A DNA stretch of 51,925 bases from an uncultured Pelagibacteraceae bacterium. Lineage in GTDB: Bacteria > Pseudomonadota > Alphaproteobacteria > Pelagibacterales > Pelagibacteraceae. Under the pieces are notes generated by a model. The model made no database searches. It saw nothing but the letters and a program-made list of their open reading frames with translations, and had not been told where the DNA came from. The position numbers and the translations under genes are program-made. Of this stretch, positions 18,085 through 26,514 are shown in pieces. Each line of letters opens with the position of its first letter. Positions within the stretch are counted from its first letter, which is position 1. The DNA lies in assembly GCA_902567495.1 (NCBI GenBank), contig CACFMO010000009.1:1-51925 (forward strand), given 5' to 3'.

Positions 18085-19338
18085 ATGTCAGAAAAAAATA
18101 ACAAAAATATTCTTTACTGCTCTTTTTGTGGAAAAAGTCAGCACGAGGTAAAAAAACTAATTGCAGGCCCAACAGTTTTTATCTGTGACGAGTGTGTTGA
18201 ACTTTGTATGGACATTATCAAAGAAGAGACAAAAAGTTCTTTGTTTAAAGGCGACGAAGGAGTTCCTACTCCAAGAGAAATTTGTAAAGTGTTGGATGAG
18301 TATGTTATTGGGCAAAATCATGCTAAAGAGGTTTTGTCAGTTGCGGTTCATAATCATTACAAAAGATTAAATCATGAGTCAAAAAATAATAAAGATTTAG
18401 AGTTATCAAAATCAAATGTTTTACTAGTTGGACCAACAGGTTGTGGTAAAACTTTACTTGCTCAAACGTTAGCCAGAATCTTAGATGTTCCATTTACAAT
18501 GGCCGATGCAACTACACTTACAGAAGCTGGTTATGTAGGAGAAGATGTTGAAAATATAATTTTAAAACTACTTCAGGCGGCGGATTATAATGTGGAAAAA
18601 GCACAAAGAGGTATAGTTTATATTGACGAAGTAGATAAGATAAGTAGAAAATCTGAAAATCCCTCGATAACACGTGATGTTTCTGGTGAAGGTGTTCAGC
18701 AAGCTCTACTAAAAATTATGGAGGGAACTGTCGCAAGTGTTCCACCACAAGGTGGAAGAAAACACCCTCAGCAAGAGTTTTTACAAGTGGATACCACAAA
18801 CATACTATTTATTTGTGGGGGCGCATTTGCCGGACTAGATAAAGTAATTGAGGCAAGAGGTAAGGAAACTTCTATAGGTTTTGGCGCCAAGGTTGTGAGT
18901 AGAGACGAAAATAAAGTTTCAGATTTAATTAAAAAACTTGAGCCTGAAGATTTGATTAAATATGGTTTGATACCTGAATTTGTTGGTAGAATGCCTATAG
19001 TAACCACACTTGAGGATTTAGATGAAAAATCATTAATAAAAATTTTAAAAGAACCAAAAAATTCACTTACCAAGCAATACAAAAGGCTGTTCGAATTTGA
19101 GAGTGTTCAATTAGAATTTAGAGAGGAAGCTTTAAGCGAAATAGCAAAAAAAGCTATTAGCAAAAAAACAGGCGCAAGAGGTTTAAGATCTATACTAGAA
19201 TCGATATTGTTAAAAACAATGTTCTCACTACCTGACATGGAAAATGTTAGCTCAGTGACTATTGACAAGTCTGTAGTCAAGGGTAAAAGCGAACCTATTA
19301 TAAGTTACTCCAAAAACAAATCTACATCCGCGGCATAA
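18085..19338 (+). CDS. clpX: ATP-dependent Clp protease ATP-binding subunit ClpX
   Basis: ClpX is the AAA+ hexameric unfoldase that feeds substrates to ClpP. It has 417 residues, the usual size. An N-terminal C4 zinc finger is formed by C12, C15, C34 and C37 (CSFC and CDEC). The AAA+ core has Walker A GPTGCGKT (about 116-123), Walker [11 protein letters not shown], the pore motif GYVG in [13 protein letters not shown], and sensor-2 TGARGLRSI near the C-terminus. The RKHPQQ segment matches the ClpX RKH loop. The short 79-base gap to clpP may hold a separate promoter but shows no clear one. Confidence 0.98.
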
Positions 19339-19379: not shown

Positions 19380-21758
19380 ATGACAACGGAGTCAAAAAAA
19401 CCTTTATTACCCCTTAGAGATATTGTTATATTTCCGTCTATAGTCGTACCGTTATTTGTCGGAAGAAAGAAATCTATCAAAGCTTTAGAAGAGGTAATGA
19501 AATCAGATAAATCGGTAGTTCTAGTAACTCAAAAAAATTCAGAAGTAGATGACCCGGGTGAAAAAGATATTTATTCATACGGATGTTTAAGTAAAGTTCT
19601 ACAATTACTCAAATTACCTGACGGGACAGTGAAAGTTTTAGTTGAGGGTCTTGCAAGAGTAAAAATATTAGAGATAGAAGATGATGTCAAAAAATATCTT
19701 AGTTGTAAAACTCAAATTATAGAGTCAGACAAAGAGAACGAGGAACATAAAGTTTTTGCCTCAAACTTAATAAAAAAGTTCGAGAAACTATCTAGCTTAA
19801 ATAAAAAAGATGTTTCCGATTTCACAAAAGGATTGAAGTCTTTAAAAAATGCTAATCAACTTGCAGATAATATTTGTTCAAATTTAAATATTCAAATTTT
19901 TGAAAAACAAGCTCTTCTTGAAATGATTGATCTAAAAAAGAGATTGGAAAAAATATATGAACTAATTGAAAAAGAGACAAGCGTGATAAGCATGGAAAAA
20001 AGAATTAGAGGAAGAGTTAAAAACCAAATGGAGAAAACTCAGAGAGAATACTATTTAAATGAACAATTAAAAGCTATTCAAAAAGAACTTGGCGAAATTG
20101 AAGATGGAAAGGATGAGATATCAAATTTAACTAAGGCAATAGCTAAAGCTAAAATGCCTAAAGAAGCGCAAAATAAATGTATGGCTGAGCTTAAAAAATT
20201 AAAAGGAATGAGTCCGATGTCAGCTGAAGCAACCGTAGTAAGAAACTACCTTGATTGGATGATTGATTTACCATGGGGAAATAAAAGCAAAATTATTTCT
20301 GATTTAAATTCAGCTCAAAAAGTTTTAGACCAAGATCACTATGGATTAGCTAAAGTTAAAGAGAGAATTATTGAATATTTAGCTGTACAAAAAAGAATAG
20401 AAAAACTCAAAGGACCAATACTATGTTTAGTTGGACCTCCAGGTGTAGGAAAAACTTCACTTGGTAAATCAATTGCAAAAGCTACAGGAAGAAAATTTGT
20501 AAGAATTTCTTTAGGTGGCATTAGAGATGAAGCTGAAATAAGAGGTCACAGAAGAACTTATATAGGTTCATTGCCAGGAAAAATTATTCAAATGATGAAA
20601 AAAGCTGGAACTAGTAATCCACTTTTTTTATTAGATGAAATTGATAAAGTTGGTAGCGATTACAGAGGTGACCCATCTTCAGCGTTACTAGAAGCATTAG
20701 ATCCTGAACAAAATAAAACTTTTAACGATCACTATTTAGAAGTTGATTATGATTTATCCGACGTACTTTTTGTCACCACTGCAAATACATTAAATATTTT
20801 ACCTCCACTTCTTGATAGAATGGAAATTATAAGACTTCCTGGTTACACAGAGGATGAAAAAATTAATATTTCTCAGAAATTTTTAATACCTAAACAAAGT
20901 GAAGATAACGGGCTTAAGAGAGATGAGTGGGAAATAAGTGAAGACGTTAATAAAAAAATTATAAGAGATTATACCAGAGAATCCGGTGTGAGAAATTTGG
21001 AGAGAGAGATCTCTAAAATCGCAAGAAAAATGGTTAAAAAAATTGACTCTAAAGAAAAAGTTAACAAGAAAATATCTGAAACAGATCTAAGTTCTTTCTT
21101 AGGTATTCAAAAGTTTAATTTTGGTGAGATTGAAAAAGAGAATAAAATTGGTGTGACAACTGGTCTTGCATGGACCGAAGTAGGAGGAGAGATTTTGAAA
21201 ATTGAAGCGGTGAATATGCCAGGAAAAGGAAAGATGCAGATAACAGGTAAACTTGGTGAAGTAATGCAAGAGTCCGTTAAAGCTGCCAAATCTTATGTTA
21301 GATCTAAATCTTTGGAGTACGGAATTATCCCTCCGTTTTTTGAGAAAAAAGATTTTCATATTCATGTTCCAGAGGGAGCTACACCAAAAGACGGACCTTC
21401 AGCCGGTATTGCTATCACAACTTCAATAATATCATCTATAACAGGAGTTCCTGTAAGCAAAGATGTGGCCATGACTGGCGAGGTTACTTTAAGAGGAAAT
21501 GTTTTACAAATCGGAGGATTAAAAGAAAAATTATTAGCTGCACATAGAGCAGGAATAAAAACTGTCTTGATACCAAATGAAAACAAAAAAGATCTTACAG
21601 AGATACCAGAGATTATTAAAAAAAGTATAAATATAATACCAGTAAGTACAGTTGACGAAGTATTAAAACATGCTCTAACAAAAACTCTAAAACCTGTTAA
21701 ATGGGCAGAAATTGATCAAGCTTCTGCAAAAAAAGACGAAGTCACAAGTAGACACTAA
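19380..21758 (+). CDS. lon: ATP-dependent protease Lon
   Basis: Lon degrades damaged and short-lived regulatory proteins in the cytoplasm. The 792-residue protein has the N-terminal substrate domain (LPLRDIVIFPSIVVPLFVGR), a coiled linker (EKRIRGRVKNQMEKTQREYYLNEQ), the AAA+ module with Walker A GPPGVGKT (about 352-359) and LLDEIDKVG, and the C-terminal protease domain with the Ser-Lys dyad S674 (DGPSAG) and K717 (GGLKEKLLAAHRAG). The spacing of 43 residues equals that in E. coli Lon. It starts 41 bases after clpX. In many alphaproteobacteria lon is followed by a histone-like gene; here a sugar-modifying gene follows instead. Confidence 0.98.
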   Translation: MTTESKKPLLPLRDIVIFPSIVVPLFVGRKKSIKALEEVMKSDKSVVLVTQKNSEVDDPGEKDIYSYGCLSKVLQLLKLPDGTVKVLVEGLARVKILEIEDDVKKYLSCKTQIIESDKENEEHKVFASNLIKKFEKLSSLNKKDVSDFTKGLKSLKNANQLADNICSNLNIQIFEKQALLEMIDLKKRLEKIYELIEKETSVISMEKRIRGRVKNQMEKTQREYYLNEQLKAIQKELGEIEDGKDEISNLTKAIAKAKMPKEAQNKCMAELKKLKGMSPMSAEATVVRNYLDWMIDLPWGNKSKIISDLNSAQKVLDQDHYGLAKVKERIIEYLAVQKRIEKLKGPILCLVGPPGVGKTSLGKSIAKATGRKFVRISLGGIRDEAEIRGHRRTYIGSLPGKIIQMMKKAGTSNPLFLLDEIDKVGSDYRGDPSSALLEALDPEQNKTFNDHYLEVDYDLSDVLFVTTANTLNILPPLLDRMEIIRLPGYTEDEKINISQKFLIPKQSEDNGLKRDEWEISEDVNKKIIRDYTRESGVRNLEREISKIARKMVKKIDSKEKVNKKISETDLSSFLGIQKFNFGEIEKENKIGVTTGLAWTEVGGEILKIEAVNMPGKGKMQITGKLGEVMQESVKAAKSYVRSKSLEYGIIPPFFEKKDFHIHVPEGATPKDGPSAGIAITTSIISSITGVPVSKDVAMTGEVTLRGNVLQIGGLKEKLLAAHRAGIKTVLIPNENKKDLTEIPEIIKKSINIIPVSTVDEVLKHALTKTLKPVKWAEIDQASAKKDEVTSRH

Positions 21759-21808: not shown

Positions 21809-24355
21809 ATGAAAAAGAAGATAGTTGTAATAGGAGCACTAGGTTACATAGGAACAGAGCTTTGTAAAATCTACTCTGGTGAGAGTTGGCATAATTCAGT
21901 AATTGCAATAGACAGTCGTTTTATATCTGAAAGGGTTTCACAACTTAGAAATTGGAATATTGAATTTAATCAAGGTGGTTTGCTTGATAAAAATTTTTTA
22001 AAGGAAAATCTCAAAGACGCAGACATTGTTTATCATTTAGCGGGAATTACGGATGTTGCTTATGTAAAAAAAGATTCAAACAAAGAACAAGATGAAAAAA
22101 TTAAAACTATAGCCATTGAAGGAACAAGAAATGTAATAAATTCAATTAATAGTAAATGTAAACTTATTTTTCCCTCAACACATGTAATTTATGAGGGACT
22201 AAAGAATACTAAAGAAAATATACATGAGGATGAGAAACCATGCCCAATTCTTGCTTATTCTTCGAGTAAAGTTCAAAATGAAAACGAAATAAAATCTTCA
22301 AATAAAAACTACATAATACTAAGACTCGGTTCTGTTTATGGATACTCAACTGACACAATGAGAATAAATATAATGCCAAATTTATTTTCTAAAATAGCCT
22401 CTCAAAATGGAACTATAAACTTATTTTCTGGAGGCAAACAAATTAAGAGCCTTGTCCCTTTAATTGATGTGGCTAGGTGTATGAAGTTTGTGGCAGAAAA
22501 TACTAGGCTGAATAAAGAAACTTTTAATTTAACAAAGGAGTCTATAACCGTTAAAGAGGTTGCTGAGATTTGTAAAAAAATTAATCCAAAATTATCAATT
22601 AAAGTCACCAATGATGAAACTCCAAATTTGGGATATACGCTTTCGAATAAAAAATTAATGCAAACCGGTTTTAAGTTTCTCTATAATTTAGAAGACTCAA
22701 TTAAAGAAATGATTACAAAATGGTCAAAACAACATTTAAATGAAAATCTTGAATTTATTAAAAGAGGAGAGAAAGAATTTATAGACAAAAGAGGTAAAAT
22801 AAGTAATTTTGAACTTCCAGAACCTGTAAATTTAATTGGCTACATTGAATCTAAAAAAGGAACAGTAAGAGCAAATCATTTTCATCCCATACAAGAACAA
22901 AAAGTGTTACTAGTTAAAGGTCAATTTATAAGCGTATATCAAGATTTATTAAAAAAAGATTCTATCAAGGTTACACATGTTGTTAATGCAGGTGACCTAA
23001 TCGTTACTAAGCCTAACGTTGCACACACTATGGTATTTACAGAAGATTCTGTTTTTCTCAATTTGGTTAGGGGAGAGAGGGAGCACAAAAATTATGGAAT
23101 TACCCATACAATTAAACATACCTTAGTTGAGGAAGATCATAGAAAAATGCTTTTAGAGAACTATAAGTTAGAGTGTCGTTGTTGTGGAAGCAAAAAATTA
23201 AAAAGAGTAGTTTCTTTGGGCTATCAACCCTTAGCAAACAATCTTTTAAATAAAAAGAACTCTAATTGTGAACTATTTCCTCTAGAAGTGAACGTCTGTG
23301 AAAATTGTTTTAATTGTCAGCTTTCAATTGTTGTTAATCCAAAAAAGATGTTTACTAATTACCTGTATTTGTCTTCAACATCAAAATCATTTGTAAAACA
23401 TTTTGAAACTGCTGCCGAGAAATATATAAAAGAACTTAAGCTTTCTAAAAAAAATTCATATATTATTGATGTAGGAAGTAATGATGGAGTTGCCTTAAAA
23501 CCATTTAAAGATAGAAAATACAAAAATATTCTGGGTATAGAACCTGCTAAAAATTTAGCAAAACTAGCTAATAAAAATAAAATAAAGACTTTTAATGGTT
23601 TTTTAGAAATAAAAAATTTAAGTAAAATTAAGAAAAACGCAGATTTAATTCTAGCTTCAAACGTATTTGCTCATTCCGATAAACTTAAAGAAATGGCAGC
23701 TTGTATGTTAAAACTTCTTGGTAAAAAGGGAGTAATAGTAATTGAGGTTCAATATTTGCTAAACACTATTAAAGACTTAACTTTTGATAATATATACCAC
23801 GAACATTATAATTATTGGTCTTTAACATCACTAAAAAATTTCTTCGAAAATTTTGATGTAACAATCTATAAAGCAGAAAAAATAGATACACATGGTGGAT
23901 CAATTAGAATTTTTATTAAAAAAGGGAAAAATCATAAACCAGATAAAAGTATAATTAATTTATTAAAAGAAGAAGAAAGTGCTGGACTTAAAAGTTATAA
24001 AACATATGAAAATTTTGGTAAAAAGGTTAAAGTTATAAGAGAGAATGTAAAAAAGAATATAAGCAACCTTAAATCGAACGGCAAAAAATTAATAGGTTAC
24101 GGATCACCTGCAAAAGCTACTACTGCTTTAAATTACTTTGGAATATCTAAAGAAATAGATTTTATCGTTGAAGACAATAAACTTAAACATGGTAAATTTG
24201 TACCTGGAGTTAAAATACCAATTAACAGCAAGAAGAAAGTTATTAGTAAAAATAATAATATGTTAGTTTTGGCATGGAATTTCTTTAAAGATATAAAAAA
24301 AAATAATAAAGATCTCTCAGATAATTTTATTAATATAAAAGACTTAGAAAATTAA
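21809..24355 (+). CDS. Three-part SDR epimerase/dehydratase - cupin - C-methyltransferase fusion
   Basis: This 848-residue protein joins three enzymes of nucleotide-sugar modification. Residues 1-305 form an extended SDR with GALGYIG (9-15) for NAD(P), the active-site serine/threonine near S123-T124 and YSSSK (150-154) as YxxxK. Residues about 315-440 form a cupin with NHFHP (356-360), E363 and H406, like sugar 3,4- or 3,5-epimerases/isomerases. Residues about 455-848 form a deoxysugar C-methyltransferase: zinc-type cysteines C456, C458, C459, C497, C500 and C503, the SAM motif IIDVGSNDG (552-560), the signature YHEHYNYW (663-670) and GYGSPAKATTALNYFG (763-778). It probably makes a branched-chain sugar for a surface glycan; the product is unknown. 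No transferases adjoin it. Confidence 0.85.
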   Translation: MKKKIVVIGALGYIGTELCKIYSGESWHNSVIAIDSRFISERVSQLRNWNIEFNQGGLLDKNFLKENLKDADIVYHLAGITDVAYVKKDSNKEQDEKIKTIAIEGTRNVINSINSKCKLIFPSTHVIYEGLKNTKENIHEDEKPCPILAYSSSKVQNENEIKSSNKNYIILRLGSVYGYSTDTMRINIMPNLFSKIASQNGTINLFSGGKQIKSLVPLIDVARCMKFVAENTRLNKETFNLTKESITVKEVAEICKKINPKLSIKVTNDETPNLGYTLSNKKLMQTGFKFLYNLEDSIKEMITKWSKQHLNENLEFIKRGEKEFIDKRGKISNFELPEPVNLIGYIESKKGTVRANHFHPIQEQKVLLVKGQFISVYQDLLKKDSIKVTHVVNAGDLIVTKPNVAHTMVFTEDSVFLNLVRGEREHKNYGITHTIKHTLVEEDHRKMLLENYKLECRCCGSKKLKRVVSLGYQPLANNLLNKKNSNCELFPLEVNVCENCFNCQLSIVVNPKKMFTNYLYLSSTSKSFVKHFETAAEKYIKELKLSKKNSYIIDVGSNDGVALKPFKDRKYKNILGIEPAKNLAKLANKNKIKTFNGFLEIKNLSKIKKNADLILASNVFAHSDKLKEMAACMLKLLGKKGVIVIEVQYLLNTIKDLTFDNIYHEHYNYWSLTSLKNFFENFDVTIYKAEKIDTHGGSIRIFIKKGKNHKPDKSIINLLKEEESAGLKSYKTYENFGKKVKVIRENVKKNISNLKSNGKKLIGYGSPAKATTALNYFGISKEIDFIVEDNKLKHGKFVPGVKIPINSKKKVISKNNNMLVLAWNFFKDIKKNNKDLSDNFINIKDLEN

Positions 24356-24356
24356 T

Positions 24357-24557
24357 TTATTTTTTTAAATATTTCTCTGCTTGAGCTATAATATTTTCTG
24401 TTGTTTTTGGAATTTCATCCAAGTTTACTTTATTTTCTTTTATTTCATCAACTAGTCTTAATACAGTTTCTTTTTTTTTCTCTGTCATTTTATCTTTATG
24501 ATTTAAAATAACATTTACAGCATCTAAAATTTCATTAATTTTATATTTATTTTTCAT
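24357..24557 (-). CDS. Small helical protein of unknown function downstream of acetoacetyl-CoA synthetase
   Basis: I do not recognise this 66-residue protein. It is charged and probably all helical (INEILDAVNVILNHKDKMTEKKKETVLRLVDEIKEN, then a short loop and TENIIAQAEKYLKK), with regular hydrophobic spacing suggesting helix packing or dimerisation. There are no cysteines and no signal peptide. Its start overlaps the end of the synthetase gene by 11 bases on the same strand, which supports real, coupled translation. Its stop lies two bases from the end of the convergent fusion gene. A partner or regulator role beside the synthetase is only a guess. Confidence 0.65.
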   Translation of the reverse strand: MKNKYKINEILDAVNVILNHKDKMTEKKKETVLRLVDEIKENKVNLDEIPKTTENIIAQAEKYLKK

Positions 24558-26514
24558 TTAATATTTTATTTTCATAAAGTTTTTTAAAGAAAAGTAAACT
24601 ATTCGGATTGGCCAAAGCTTGTAAATTATCAATCTTTTCACCATGAATAGCTTTTTTTACTGACAGTTCAACAATTTTTCCACTTTTTGTTCTTGGAATA
24701 TCAGGCACTTGTATAATTTTATAAGGCACATGCTTTGGTGAGCAATTTCTTTTGATTTTATCTTTTATTAGTGAAATATTTTTTTCGTCTAATTTTTTGT
24801 TAGTTTTCAATAATACAAAAAGTATTACTTTTACATCGTCTTTTAAATTTTGACCTACTACTAAACTTTCACGAATAAAATCAATATTTTCTACTTGCCT
24901 ATATATTTCTGCCGTCCCAATCCTTACACCACCAGGATTTAAAGTTGCATCTGACCTTCCTAATATTATAAAACCATTATTTCGTGTTCGTTGTATAAAA
25001 TCTCCATGGTGCCAAATATTCTTATATTTAGAAAAATAGGCTTTTTTAAATTTTTTATCTTTTTTATCATTCCAAAACTTAATTGGCATTGTGGGAAAAG
25101 GTTTTTTAATAACTAATTCACCCTTTTTGTTTCCAGATACCTTTTTTCCATTTTCATTATAAATATCAACATCTAAACCAAGACTCTCTCCCTGAATCTC
25201 TCCAGCATAAACTTTTGAAAATAAATTTCCTAATACCAAACAACCAACAACATCAGTTCCACCACTTATAGACGCAAGATGTACATCTTTTTTAATATTT
25301 TCGTATACAAACTCAAAACTTTCTTTCACCAAAGGTGATCCTGTTGACGCGATAGTATTTAAATTAGATAAATTCTGGTTTTTAAAATTAAGTTTTTCTT
25401 TTTTAAGAAAATCAATATATTTTGCACTAACTCCAAATAAATTTATTTTCTCTTTCGCACAAAATTTAATCAAAATATCTTTTGTTGGATAGGTAGGGGA
25501 CCCATCATATAAATATAAACTCGCACCCGTTGATAAAGCACCGACCAACCAATTCCACATCATCCACCCGGTAGTTGTGTAATAAAATACTTTGTCATTA
25601 CTTTTAACGTTACAGTGCAAAGAAAATTCTTTGTTATGTTCGATTAAAACATTTCCTGCTCCGTGTGTTATACATTTTGGAACACCAGTGGTACCGCTCG
25701 AATAAAGTATATAAAGCGGGTGGTTGAATGGGAATTTCTTAAAACTTTTATCAATTTTTGATTTACCAAGAATTAAGTTAAAGTCTTTAAATCCTGAACC
25801 CAATTTACTATCAAATTTATTTCCATATGGAAAAACAATAACTTCTTTAATTGATTTAATTTTTTTTAAAATCTCAGGTATTTTTTTTAAAATATTAATT
25901 TTTTTTCCATTATAAAAATAATAATCACATGTAATTAATACTTTTGGTTTTATCTGTGAAAATCGGTCTATGACACCATCAGAACCAAAGTCTGGCGAGC
26001 ATGAAGACCATACAAGTCCGTTCTTAGAAGATGCTAAAAAAGCAATTATACTCTCTATTGAATTGGGAACATAAGCAGCGATCCTATCATTTTCTTGAAT
26101 ATTAATATTTTTTAAATAATAGGAGAACTTACAAACCTTCACATAAAGTTCGCGCCATGAAATTTCTTTTTTTAAAGAACTTTCTGATAAAAAATTTATA
26201 GCAATCTCATTATTTCTCTTTTTTAATAAATTTTCTGCATAATTTAATTGGGATTTTGGAAAAAAAATATTTTTATAAAAAATTTTATTTTTTTTTAAAA
26301 TTGAGCCTTTTTTATCACCTTTTATTTTAGTGAAATCCCATACTTCTGACCAAAATTTTTCGTTGTTTTTAATTGACCATTTCCAAAGATTTTTAAAATT
26401 TGATTTATTTCTAATAAAACCTTTGCTTTCTAATTGGTCGCAAAATTTCTTTAATTGTGAATTCTTTTTTAAATCAACATTTGCTGACCATAATGCAGAT
26501 TGTGATTTTTTCAT
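24547..26514 (-). CDS. Acetoacetyl-CoA synthetase (acetoacetate-CoA ligase)
   Basis: This ANL-superfamily enzyme activates acetoacetate to acetoacetyl-CoA with ATP, allowing use of ketone bodies or polyhydroxybutyrate breakdown products. The 655-residue length fits acetoacetyl-CoA synthetase better than acetyl-CoA synthetase. The AMP-binding P-loop is YSSGTTGVPK, followed by TTTGWMMWNWLVGAL, characteristic of this group; the A8 region reads LGRSDATLNPGGVRIGTAEIYR, and the catalytic lysine lies in RTKSGKIVE near the C-terminus. The N-terminal ALWSANVDL block is the usual ACS extension. It sits six bases after the zinc-ribbon gene and overlaps the small 66-residue gene. A related short-chain acid substrate is possible. 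Confidence 0.9.
   Translation of the reverse strand: MKKSQSALWSANVDLKKNSQLKKFCDQLESKGFIRNKSNFKNLWKWSIKNNEKFWSEVWDFTKIKGDKKGSILKKNKIFYKNIFFPKSQLNYAENLLKKRNNEIAINFLSESSLKKEISWRELYVKVCKFSYYLKNINIQENDRIAAYVPNSIESIIAFLASSKNGLVWSSCSPDFGSDGVIDRFSQIKPKVLITCDYYFYNGKKINILKKIPEILKKIKSIKEVIVFPYGNKFDSKLGSGFKDFNLILGKSKIDKSFKKFPFNHPLYILYSSGTTGVPKCITHGAGNVLIEHNKEFSLHCNVKSNDKVFYYTTTGWMMWNWLVGALSTGASLYLYDGSPTYPTKDILIKFCAKEKINLFGVSAKYIDFLKKEKLNFKNQNLSNLNTIASTGSPLVKESFEFVYENIKKDVHLASISGGTDVVGCLVLGNLFSKVYAGEIQGESLGLDVDIYNENGKKVSGNKKGELVIKKPFPTMPIKFWNDKKDKKFKKAYFSKYKNIWHHGDFIQRTRNNGFIILGRSDATLNPGGVRIGTAEIYRQVENIDFIRESLVVGQNLKDDVKVILFVLLKTNKKLDEKNISLIKDKIKRNCSPKHVPYKIIQVPDIPRTKSGKIVELSVKKAIHGEKIDNLQALANPNSLLFFKKLYENKILNEK

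Follow-up and report, generated by a model that had tools for sequence, protein, structure and literature searches.

The window analysed here, positions 1–51,925 of contig CACFMO010000009.1 of an uncultured Pelagibacteraceae bacterium (assembly GCA_902567495.1), carries a gene in which three sugar-nucleotide domains are fused in a single 848-residue protein: a short-chain dehydrogenase/reductase (SDR, residues 1–312), a CapF-like cupin (residues 314–452) and a sugar C-methyltransferase (residues 455–848). Our analysis indicates that the fusion is real and conserved and that it probably works as an enzyme that makes a branched sugar; we consider it likely that it is a trifunctional synthase whose product, an activated sugar nucleotide with a 3-C-methyl branch, would be used by an often adjoining glycosyltransferase (GT). 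What we propose below for substrate, carrier nucleotide, order of steps, product and destination builds on the observed architecture, folds, conserved catalytic residues, distribution and gene neighbours.

The original prediction, made from the DNA letters, had described three activities with intact motifs in one chain, and on this the open reading frame (ORF), Pfam matches, folds and conserved residues agree. The frame is under purifying selection (nonsynonymous divergence dN 0.079 and synonymous divergence dS 1.46 relative to the homologue L026, dS being near saturation), and an AlphaFold2 model of the whole protein, built with 41 sequences, has a mean pLDDT (predicted local distance difference test) of 86.9 and a pTM (predicted template modelling score) of 0.71. 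That three genes were joined by chance or by an assembly error, the latter a worry voiced with the prediction, can safely be dismissed, given that 89 of 398 genomes of the same family carry a near full-length copy in a single frame, that the 80 relatives kept from a scan of genome contigs are all 831–867 residues long and that dozens of viral contigs have the fusion as well.

Domains and conserved residues

Features of the gene and of its two neighbours are collected in Table 1. Residue conservation was counted over 81 SAR11 and 41 viral sequences; the broken viral copy L122 was excluded from both alignments (A1 and A2), and the rows of A2 were picked without sequences of fewer than 840 residues.

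Table 1. Coordinates of the fusion gene, its domains and motifs, and the flanking genes (positions in the window)
Feature	Position	Strand	Basis
Complete fusion gene, SDR-cupin-C-methyltransferase	21,809–24,355	+	ATG start, 848 residues, no internal stops; full-length homologues
SDR domain, NAD type, residues 1–312	21,809–22,744	+	Pfam; closest solved structure Cj1427, a GDP-heptose C4-dehydrogenase
Gly-rich dinucleotide motif G9-x2-G12-x2-G15	21,833–21,853	+	Residue alignment
D35, NAD-type acid, end of strand 2	21,911–21,913	+	Residue alignment
SDR catalytic Y150-x3-K154, invariant	22,256–22,270	+	Residue alignment
Cupin domain, probably CapF-like, residues 314–452	22,748–23,164	+	Weak alignment, fold match, conserved His
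Sugar C-methyltransferase domain, residues 455–848 (zinc-binding head, S-adenosylmethionine core, C-terminal domain)	23,171–24,352	+	Pfam; 4rv9, E 4e-60; fold matches
Y663-H664-E665-H666, counterpart of the TcaB9 Y222/E224/H225 block, invariant	23,795–23,806	+	3ndi alignment row
lon (neighbour, no part in the function)	19,380–21,758	+	1091 bits, over cut-off; 50 bp before the fusion gene
Acetoacetate-CoA ligase (neighbour, not thought part of the function)	24,547–26,514	−	839 bits, over cut-off; TIGR01217 764.7 bits (cut-off 520.9)

The methyltransferase domain matches Pfam Methyltransf_13 at residues 456–515 (60.3 bits, cut-off 31.3), Methyltransf_23 at 536–686 (54.8 bits, cut-off 27) and Methyltransf_14 at 694–837 (139.2 bits, cut-off 23.5), and its model superimposes on the C3-methyltransferases TcaB9, KijD1 and MtmC with Z 45–47 over 392–398 residues and a root mean square deviation (rmsd) of 2.1–2.3, MtmC being the nearest PDB chain at ~30% identity. 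Through the 3ndi row, the residues named in the titles of the TcaB9 mutant entries (Y76, H181, Y222, E224 and H225) correspond to Y518, H622, Y663, E665 and H666, and all of these, together with H664, occur in 81/81 SAR11 and 41/41 viral sequences. Also invariant in both sets are D554, G556, N558, D559 and G560 of the S-adenosylmethionine (SAM) site; in the zinc head, cysteines C456, C459, C497 and C500 never vary among the SAR11 sequences, whereas part of the viral ones have other residues there.

The SDR domain matches Pfam Epimerase at residues 5–241 (84.9 bits, cut-off 20.9). Y150 and K154 are kept in every SAR11 and viral sequence counted, and D35 in all 81 SAR11 and 40 of the 41 viral ones, the remaining viral sequence having a gap there; an acid that ends strand 2 of an SDR is a sign of NAD use. 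By sequence, the closest solved SDR is Cj1427 (6vo6, E 7e-21; 25–26% identity). By fold, two Cj1427 entries also lead (Z 34.9 with 302 aligned residues and rmsd 3.9; Z 34.8 with 295 and rmsd 2.1), followed by the UDP-glucose 4-epimerase TM0509 at Z 32.9. We could rule out that this domain is itself a nucleoside diphosphate-sugar 4,6-dehydratase of the RmlB, Gmd or RfbG kind from its equivalog score and a missing acid pair: the acid pair of the T-D-E type motif is catalytic in 4,6-dehydratases, and the fusion has S123-T124-H125-V126 where RmlB from the window's own genome has S-T-D-E-V; the RmlB equivalog model gives 55.1 bits against a cut-off of 365.1, and the Gmd and RfbG models do not match the fusion at E 0.1.

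The cupin was placed mainly by fold. Its Pfam Cupin_2 score is 18.1 bits, under the cut-off of 27.2, and the phmmer match to CapF is weak (E ~0.5) and covers the metal-motif region. Folded alone with AlphaFold2, the domain gave five models with pLDDT from 54.0 up to 85.9 for the best, two of the others lying below 55. In a Foldseek search with the cupin model, CapF filled the first five rows and RmlC-type chains came lower down; Z was 16.3 against CapF 3st7 and 14.0 against the next family, KdgF. H357, H359, H406 and Q364 are invariant across the SAR11 and viral sequences; in the same weak alignment Q364 stands at the place of the CapF-motif glutamate, and the neighbouring E363 is glutamine in 4 of the 41 viral sequences. 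We regard the domain as probably CapF-like, other cupin families also being compatible with the fold searches.

Distribution and gene neighbours in SAR11 and viruses

The window comes from a SAR11 bacterium whose genome spans 969 kb over 25 contigs (88% complete), and the fusion is widespread in the SAR11 family. Of 215 relatives found by scanning genome contigs, the best 80 were kept, on which the neighbour counts rest; all are titled Pelagibacteraceae, Pelagibacterales or Candidatus Pelagibacter. The family sample consists of 398 genomes with a completeness of 80% or more; matches reaching E 1e-150 were obtained in 100 of them, 11 of these being partial, and the fusion occurs in 4 of the 10 genera sampled. 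No three-domain match was found in 189 other genomes sampled from the class (E 1e-60), at least one of them from the window's own family, or in 248 others sampled from the phylum (E 1e-80). The matches listed for these two samples start at query residue 430 or later, except in G726 and G667, where they span cupin and methyltransferase across a stop; in G726 (L214) cupin and methyltransferase are separate adjoining genes with an SDR-like ORF alongside.

Intermediate forms exist. In G272 and G345 the SDR is missing and cupin and methyltransferase form one protein (556 and 544 residues; 52–62% identity to the matching domains), with a GT17 gene (PF04724, 68 and 81 bits in the two genomes, cut-off 26) that lies directly upstream on the same strand in G345 (L110) and ~2 kb off in G272. 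In G021, methyltransferase and cupin are separate neighbours, with GT17 and a LegC-like aminotransferase (the latter below its model cut-off) encoded nearby. Near the cupin-methyltransferase genes of L109 (3,796–6,866) and L110 (10,577–13,641) we also noted SDR, formyltransferase-like and PseC/WecE-like aminotransferase genes, a three-gene set that suggests an N-formyl amino sugar. L113 (G033:C10) holds an SDR-only fragment of the fusion at 18,097–18,894 (65% identity) that stops at an unrelated ORF on the opposite strand; another short stretch of the fusion gene is found ~14 kb away on the same contig (3,403–3,723), indicating either a chimeric contig or a real break.

In the window, the gene stands in a housekeeping setting, as the original prediction had it, with genes that we take to be clpP and clpX and then lon before it, and two tRNAs and what are presumably the genes of the nuo series after it. 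It had also been described as solitary, with no glycosyltransferase beside it; this holds within the window, where it seemed alone because lon is its upstream neighbour, but not for its relatives. With neighbour families assigned from searched representatives of each cluster, 54 of the 80 SAR11 loci have a GT17 gene directly upstream, 12 have lon, 8 a GT2 gene and 3 another gene (a contig end intervenes in 3), so that a glycosyltransferase of any kind is directly upstream in 63 of 80 (54 GT17, 8 GT2 and one GT41, a TPR-GT41 protein in L038); the upstream gene of L048 has no Pfam match. All 54 adjoining GT17 genes lie on the opposite strand, at a median gap of 36 bp, and lon is found within two upstream genes in 59 of 80 loci. 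Moreover, lon is missing from 14 loci whose upstream sequence exceeds 3.5 kb; of these, 8 have GT2 as the upstream gene, 3 have GT17 and 3 have another gene (one of them GT41), a glycosyltransferase thus being present in 12 of 14, and so a fusion placed elsewhere still adjoins a glycosyltransferase. The window's genome has a single GT17 gene, located elsewhere (G000:C6:54234–54953). Acetoacetate-CoA ligase is directly downstream of the fusion in only 5 of the 80 loci (L024–L028), all with lon rather than GT17 upstream; L076 also has it close by, as does L094 in the form of a piece at the contig end. According to passages of PMC11898729, the SAR11 O-chain genes form a single variable cluster between split rRNA genes; the words methyltransferase, epimerase and cupin are absent from the main text of that study.

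The fusion is also carried by viruses. Scanning viral contigs with the single sequence gave 9 loci at 51–59% identity, one of them (L122) broken, and scanning with the alignment gave 69, including the contigs of those 9. The 69 comprise 43 with an SDR-cupin-methyltransferase ORF, 6 with SDR-cupin, one with SDR-cupin followed by a methyltransferase (L182, 450 residues), 2 with the SDR apart from a cupin-methyltransferase, 12 with methyltransferase only and 5 with SDR only, some at contig ends. Among the 43, the ORFs of L159 and L170 run off the contig, that of L165 (the L122 contig) has a broken SDR and that of L169 is extended; among the 6, L176, L178 and L185 are cut by a contig end. Several viral contigs are near-identical, so that the 43 loci are not independent. 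A 642-kb metagenomic phage record, LR756502.1, has the fusion at 58% identity with 100% query cover. Genes for a single-strand binding protein, an exonuclease and a DNA polymerase lie within 8 kb of the fusion in L172, a tail fibre gene lies beside it in L115 and L141 has an SbcD-like endonuclease subunit; in 5 of the 43 loci there are genes like this subunit and its partner nearby, a pair that we take to be a marker of T4-type phages. GT17 is present in 11 of the 43 loci, directly upstream in 5, even though it accounts for only 13 of 1,224 viral ORFs; three members of these calls were confirmed against Pfam, and the GT17 protein of L121, assigned by Pfam, has no NCBIfam match at 1e-6.

In a tree of the methyltransferase domain, the SAR11 sequences, including the cupin-methyltransferase proteins of L109 and L110, form one clade (support 0.986) and the viral sequences another (0.717). 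This suggests an old split between the two, and a recent exchange between SAR11 and phages is unsupported. Midpoint rooting was used because the outgroup did not come out as monophyletic, and the tree is compatible with transfer in either direction.

Some viral loci deserve separate mention. On the L122/L165 contig (IMGVR_UViG_3300045125_000058) short or interrupted ORFs are numerous, and three stops fall within the fusion gene; recoding of stop codons was rejected as an explanation, as reading TAG as glutamine left the frames broken, which makes sequence errors likely. L179, L180 and L202 encode plain SDR-cupin proteins of 456–463 residues. In L180 a separate C-methyltransferase gene of another type (Methyltransf_13/14) overlaps the end of the SDR-cupin ORF, and a look-alike is found near that of L179, possibly reflecting a mix-and-match of partners. 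Finally, gmd-like genes are near the fusion in L117–L120 and L123, accompanied by a NeuB-like gene in L117–L120, a GDP-fucose-synthase-like gene in L118–L120 and a PseB-like gene in L123, these cassette genes scoring below curated cut-offs where searched.

Proposed reaction and its alternatives

In the reaction that we propose, the NAD-binding SDR would perform redox chemistry at C4 of the sugar, a C4 ketone would acidify C3, the C-terminal domain would transfer the methyl group of SAM to C3, and the CapF-like cupin would set the stereochemistry at C3 and/or C5. By a narrow preference, we suggest that the SDR oxidises C4 first and reduces it last with the same bound NAD, as in SDR epimerases, and that an ordinary sugar nucleotide, for instance UDP-glucose or GDP-mannose, could serve as substrate. 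The neighbouring GT17 or GT2 enzyme would then transfer the product to a surface glycan of the bacterium or, for phages, to host or virion glycans. Because one of the three activities is a C-methyltransferase, a branched sugar is the likeliest product, in line with the branched-chain deoxysugar originally envisaged. Its deoxy character is less readily retained: a deoxysugar would need the product of a 4,6-dehydratase as substrate, but the SDR lacks the acid pair and some carriers of the fusion lack the dehydratases searched for.

The latter emerged from a comparison of 25 carriers (the 24 of the family sample listed as at least 90% complete, at 90–98%, plus the genome of the window) with 11 of the 12 listed non-carriers of at least 94% completeness, partly from other genera and without G033, which holds fragments. 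Among carriers, gmd, CDP-glucose dehydratase and RmlB are each present in 15 genomes (for gmd, 9 of the matches exceed the curated cut-off) and PF02719 is present in 9; the corresponding numbers in non-carriers are 6, 2, 6 and 4. No single one of these four dehydratase families, searched at fixed E-value thresholds, is common to all 25 carriers, and all four are missing in 4 of them (G070, G208, G210 and G239). ManC-like matches occur in 22 of 25 carriers (in G101 as a C-terminal piece only) and GalU-like matches in 24. The dehydratases being patchy, none of their products would be the universal substrate, if the absences are real, and GDP-mannose or UDP-glucose could be. Together, the Cj1427-like SDR, its lack of dehydratase acids and the 4 carriers without dehydratases suggest that the enzyme may oxidise C4 itself. 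Carried to its full extent, this would describe a self-contained, redox-neutral enzyme on one polypeptide that turns an everyday sugar nucleotide (e.g. GDP-mannose) into a 3-C-methyl sugar with no 4,6-dehydratase and no net NAD and that forms, with GT17 or GT2, a small portable glycan module in SAR11, outside the O-chain cluster, and in T4-type phages, a proposal that in its entirety we regard as doubtful.

Several observations weigh against a C4-oxidising, dehydratase-free enzyme coupled to a glycosyltransferase. As Cj1427 leads the SDR epimerases by only ~2 Z, the fold does not fix whether the SDR is a dehydrogenase or a reductase/epimerase, and the metal of the cupin is unsure, given that its glutamate ligand is apparently a glutamine. 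Shared ancestry largely accounts for the glycosyltransferases that adjoin the fusion in lon-linked SAR11 loci, and 6 of 11 genomes without the fusion contain GT17, as compared to 21 of 25 with it (p 0.10). Every ManC- and GalU-like match is under its family cut-off. The four dehydratase families are likewise all missing in 2 of the 11 non-carriers (G069 and G075), and their absence from carriers is a matter of four families, fixed thresholds and genomes that are 91–93% complete, in which another SDR may serve. Moreover, CDP-glucose dehydratase is commoner in carriers, 15/25 versus 2/11 (Fisher p 0.03, with no correction for relatedness or for the five comparisons made), and a gmd-like gene is found in 13 of the 43 viral loci (in L181 and L184 at only 40–42% identity), both of which favour a 4-keto-6-deoxy substrate.

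These last points lead to the strongest alternative, whose prospects we judge to be a little short of even: a late-step enzyme, supplied by a separate 4,6-dehydratase with a GDP-, CDP- or dTDP-4-keto-6-deoxy sugar that is methylated at C3, epimerised by the cupin and reduced at C4 by the SDR, as in the mycarose and proposed virenose routes. Besides the enrichment of CDP-glucose dehydratase in carriers and the viral gmd-like genes, it draws on the window's own genome, in which both RmlB and a CDP-glucose 4,6-dehydratase are found (the latter at 421 bits, cut-off 278), on the virenose scheme, in which passages of PMC3539893 have a TylCIII-type enzyme methylate C3 of 4-keto-6-deoxy sugars, and on the SDR-cupin order, which matches that of CapF, whose SDR is a reductase according to passages of PMC5393024. 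Nonetheless, none of the four dehydratase families is common to the 25 carriers, 4 of which lack them all; D35 suggests NAD(H) whereas CapF uses NADPH; and the CDP-glucose dehydratase gene of the window's genome already adjoins an unfused C-methyltransferase of its own. That unfused CDP-sugar run, at 864–4,754 of L105 (G000:C6), consists of the CDP-glucose 4,6-dehydratase, the C-methyltransferase, a glucose-1-phosphate cytidylyltransferase-like gene (285.5 bits, just below the 300.25 cut-off) and an SDR-like ORF.

Two further alternatives, both improbable in our view, change a single step of the proposed synthase. The SDR might be a C4-dehydrogenase only, as Cj1427 is, with the methyltransferase domain also reducing C4 in the manner of the TylCIII-type enzyme of Streptomyces argillaceus. 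The latter is presumably MtmC, the nearest PDB chain to this domain, and passages of PMC3539893 cite a 4-ketoreductase activity for the S. argillaceus homologue; the identity is low, however, and an SDR that returns to reduce C4 is simpler. Alternatively, the methyl group might go to C5 instead of C3. Members of the same Pfam families of the NovU type methylate C5, and Methyltransf_13 and Methyltransf_14 presumably do not tell C3 from C5 enzymes; yet the top-ranked solved enzymes, MtmC, KijD1 and TcaB9, are named C3 enzymes, and none of the matches listed is named a C5 methyltransferase, though no direct comparison with one was made.

Comparison with known systems

The sugar C3-methyltransferases TylC3, TcaB9, KijD1 and MtmC, which are stand-alone dTDP-linked enzymes of antibiotic clusters, resemble the entire C-terminal domain in extent, fold and active-site residues; unlike them, the methyltransferase described here is fused to two other domains and occurs in SAR11 and phages. 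The first two domains have the layout of CapF/Cap5F, the UDP-sugar epimerase-reductase of Staphylococcus aureus, in which the SDR also precedes the cupin in one chain and whose cupin, the best fold match, is reported to be a Zn-dependent epimerase; in passages of PMC5393024 the fused SDR of CapF uses NADPH. Some viral relatives also have the CapF layout, being plain SDR-cupin proteins (L179, L180 and L202) or an SDR-cupin followed by a methyltransferase (L182). CapF differs from the fusion in having no methyltransferase, in its cofactor, for which D35 points to NAD here, and in the cupin glutamate replaced by Q364. The CapF-related WbcJ model NF047837 (UDPAcbARedWbcJ) gives the fusion 18.1 bits against an equivalog cut-off of 500, so far below it that we do not file the protein as CapF.

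The closest solved SDR belongs to a system of separate proteins in Campylobacter jejuni, where, in passages of PMC10680097, Cj1427 oxidises GDP-heptose at C4 with tightly bound NADH and acts with the epimerase Cj1430 and the reductase Cj1428. The logic of C4 oxidation, epimerisation and reduction is similar, but the substrate is a heptose, there is no C-methylation and the SDR identity is low. Another parallel is virenose (6-deoxy-3-C-methylgulose) of Coxiella burnetii, a surface 3-C-methyl branched sugar for which passages of PMC3204966 and PMC3539893 propose a TylCIII-type enzyme; unlike the fusion, that proposed route uses separate genes and would proceed via Gmd or a dTDP dehydratase, and those passages mention no fusion.

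It had been anticipated that the architecture might prove widespread with a known product: it is widespread in the SAR11 family and in viruses, but neither a known product nor a description of the three-domain fusion was found among the top matches in the open-licence PubMed Central (PMC) literature. SAR11 are very abundant marine bacteria, and a conserved fused enzyme outside their O-chain cluster, mostly near lon across species and also present in phages, points to a shared branched sugar that we did not find described. The fusion offers a single-protein test of how branched sugars are built and is a candidate for making a sugar produced by phage and host alike. Each of its domains is of a known kind; relative to that literature, the new elements are the joining of the three, its conservation in SAR11 at a site other than the O-chain cluster as described, and its occurrence in phages.

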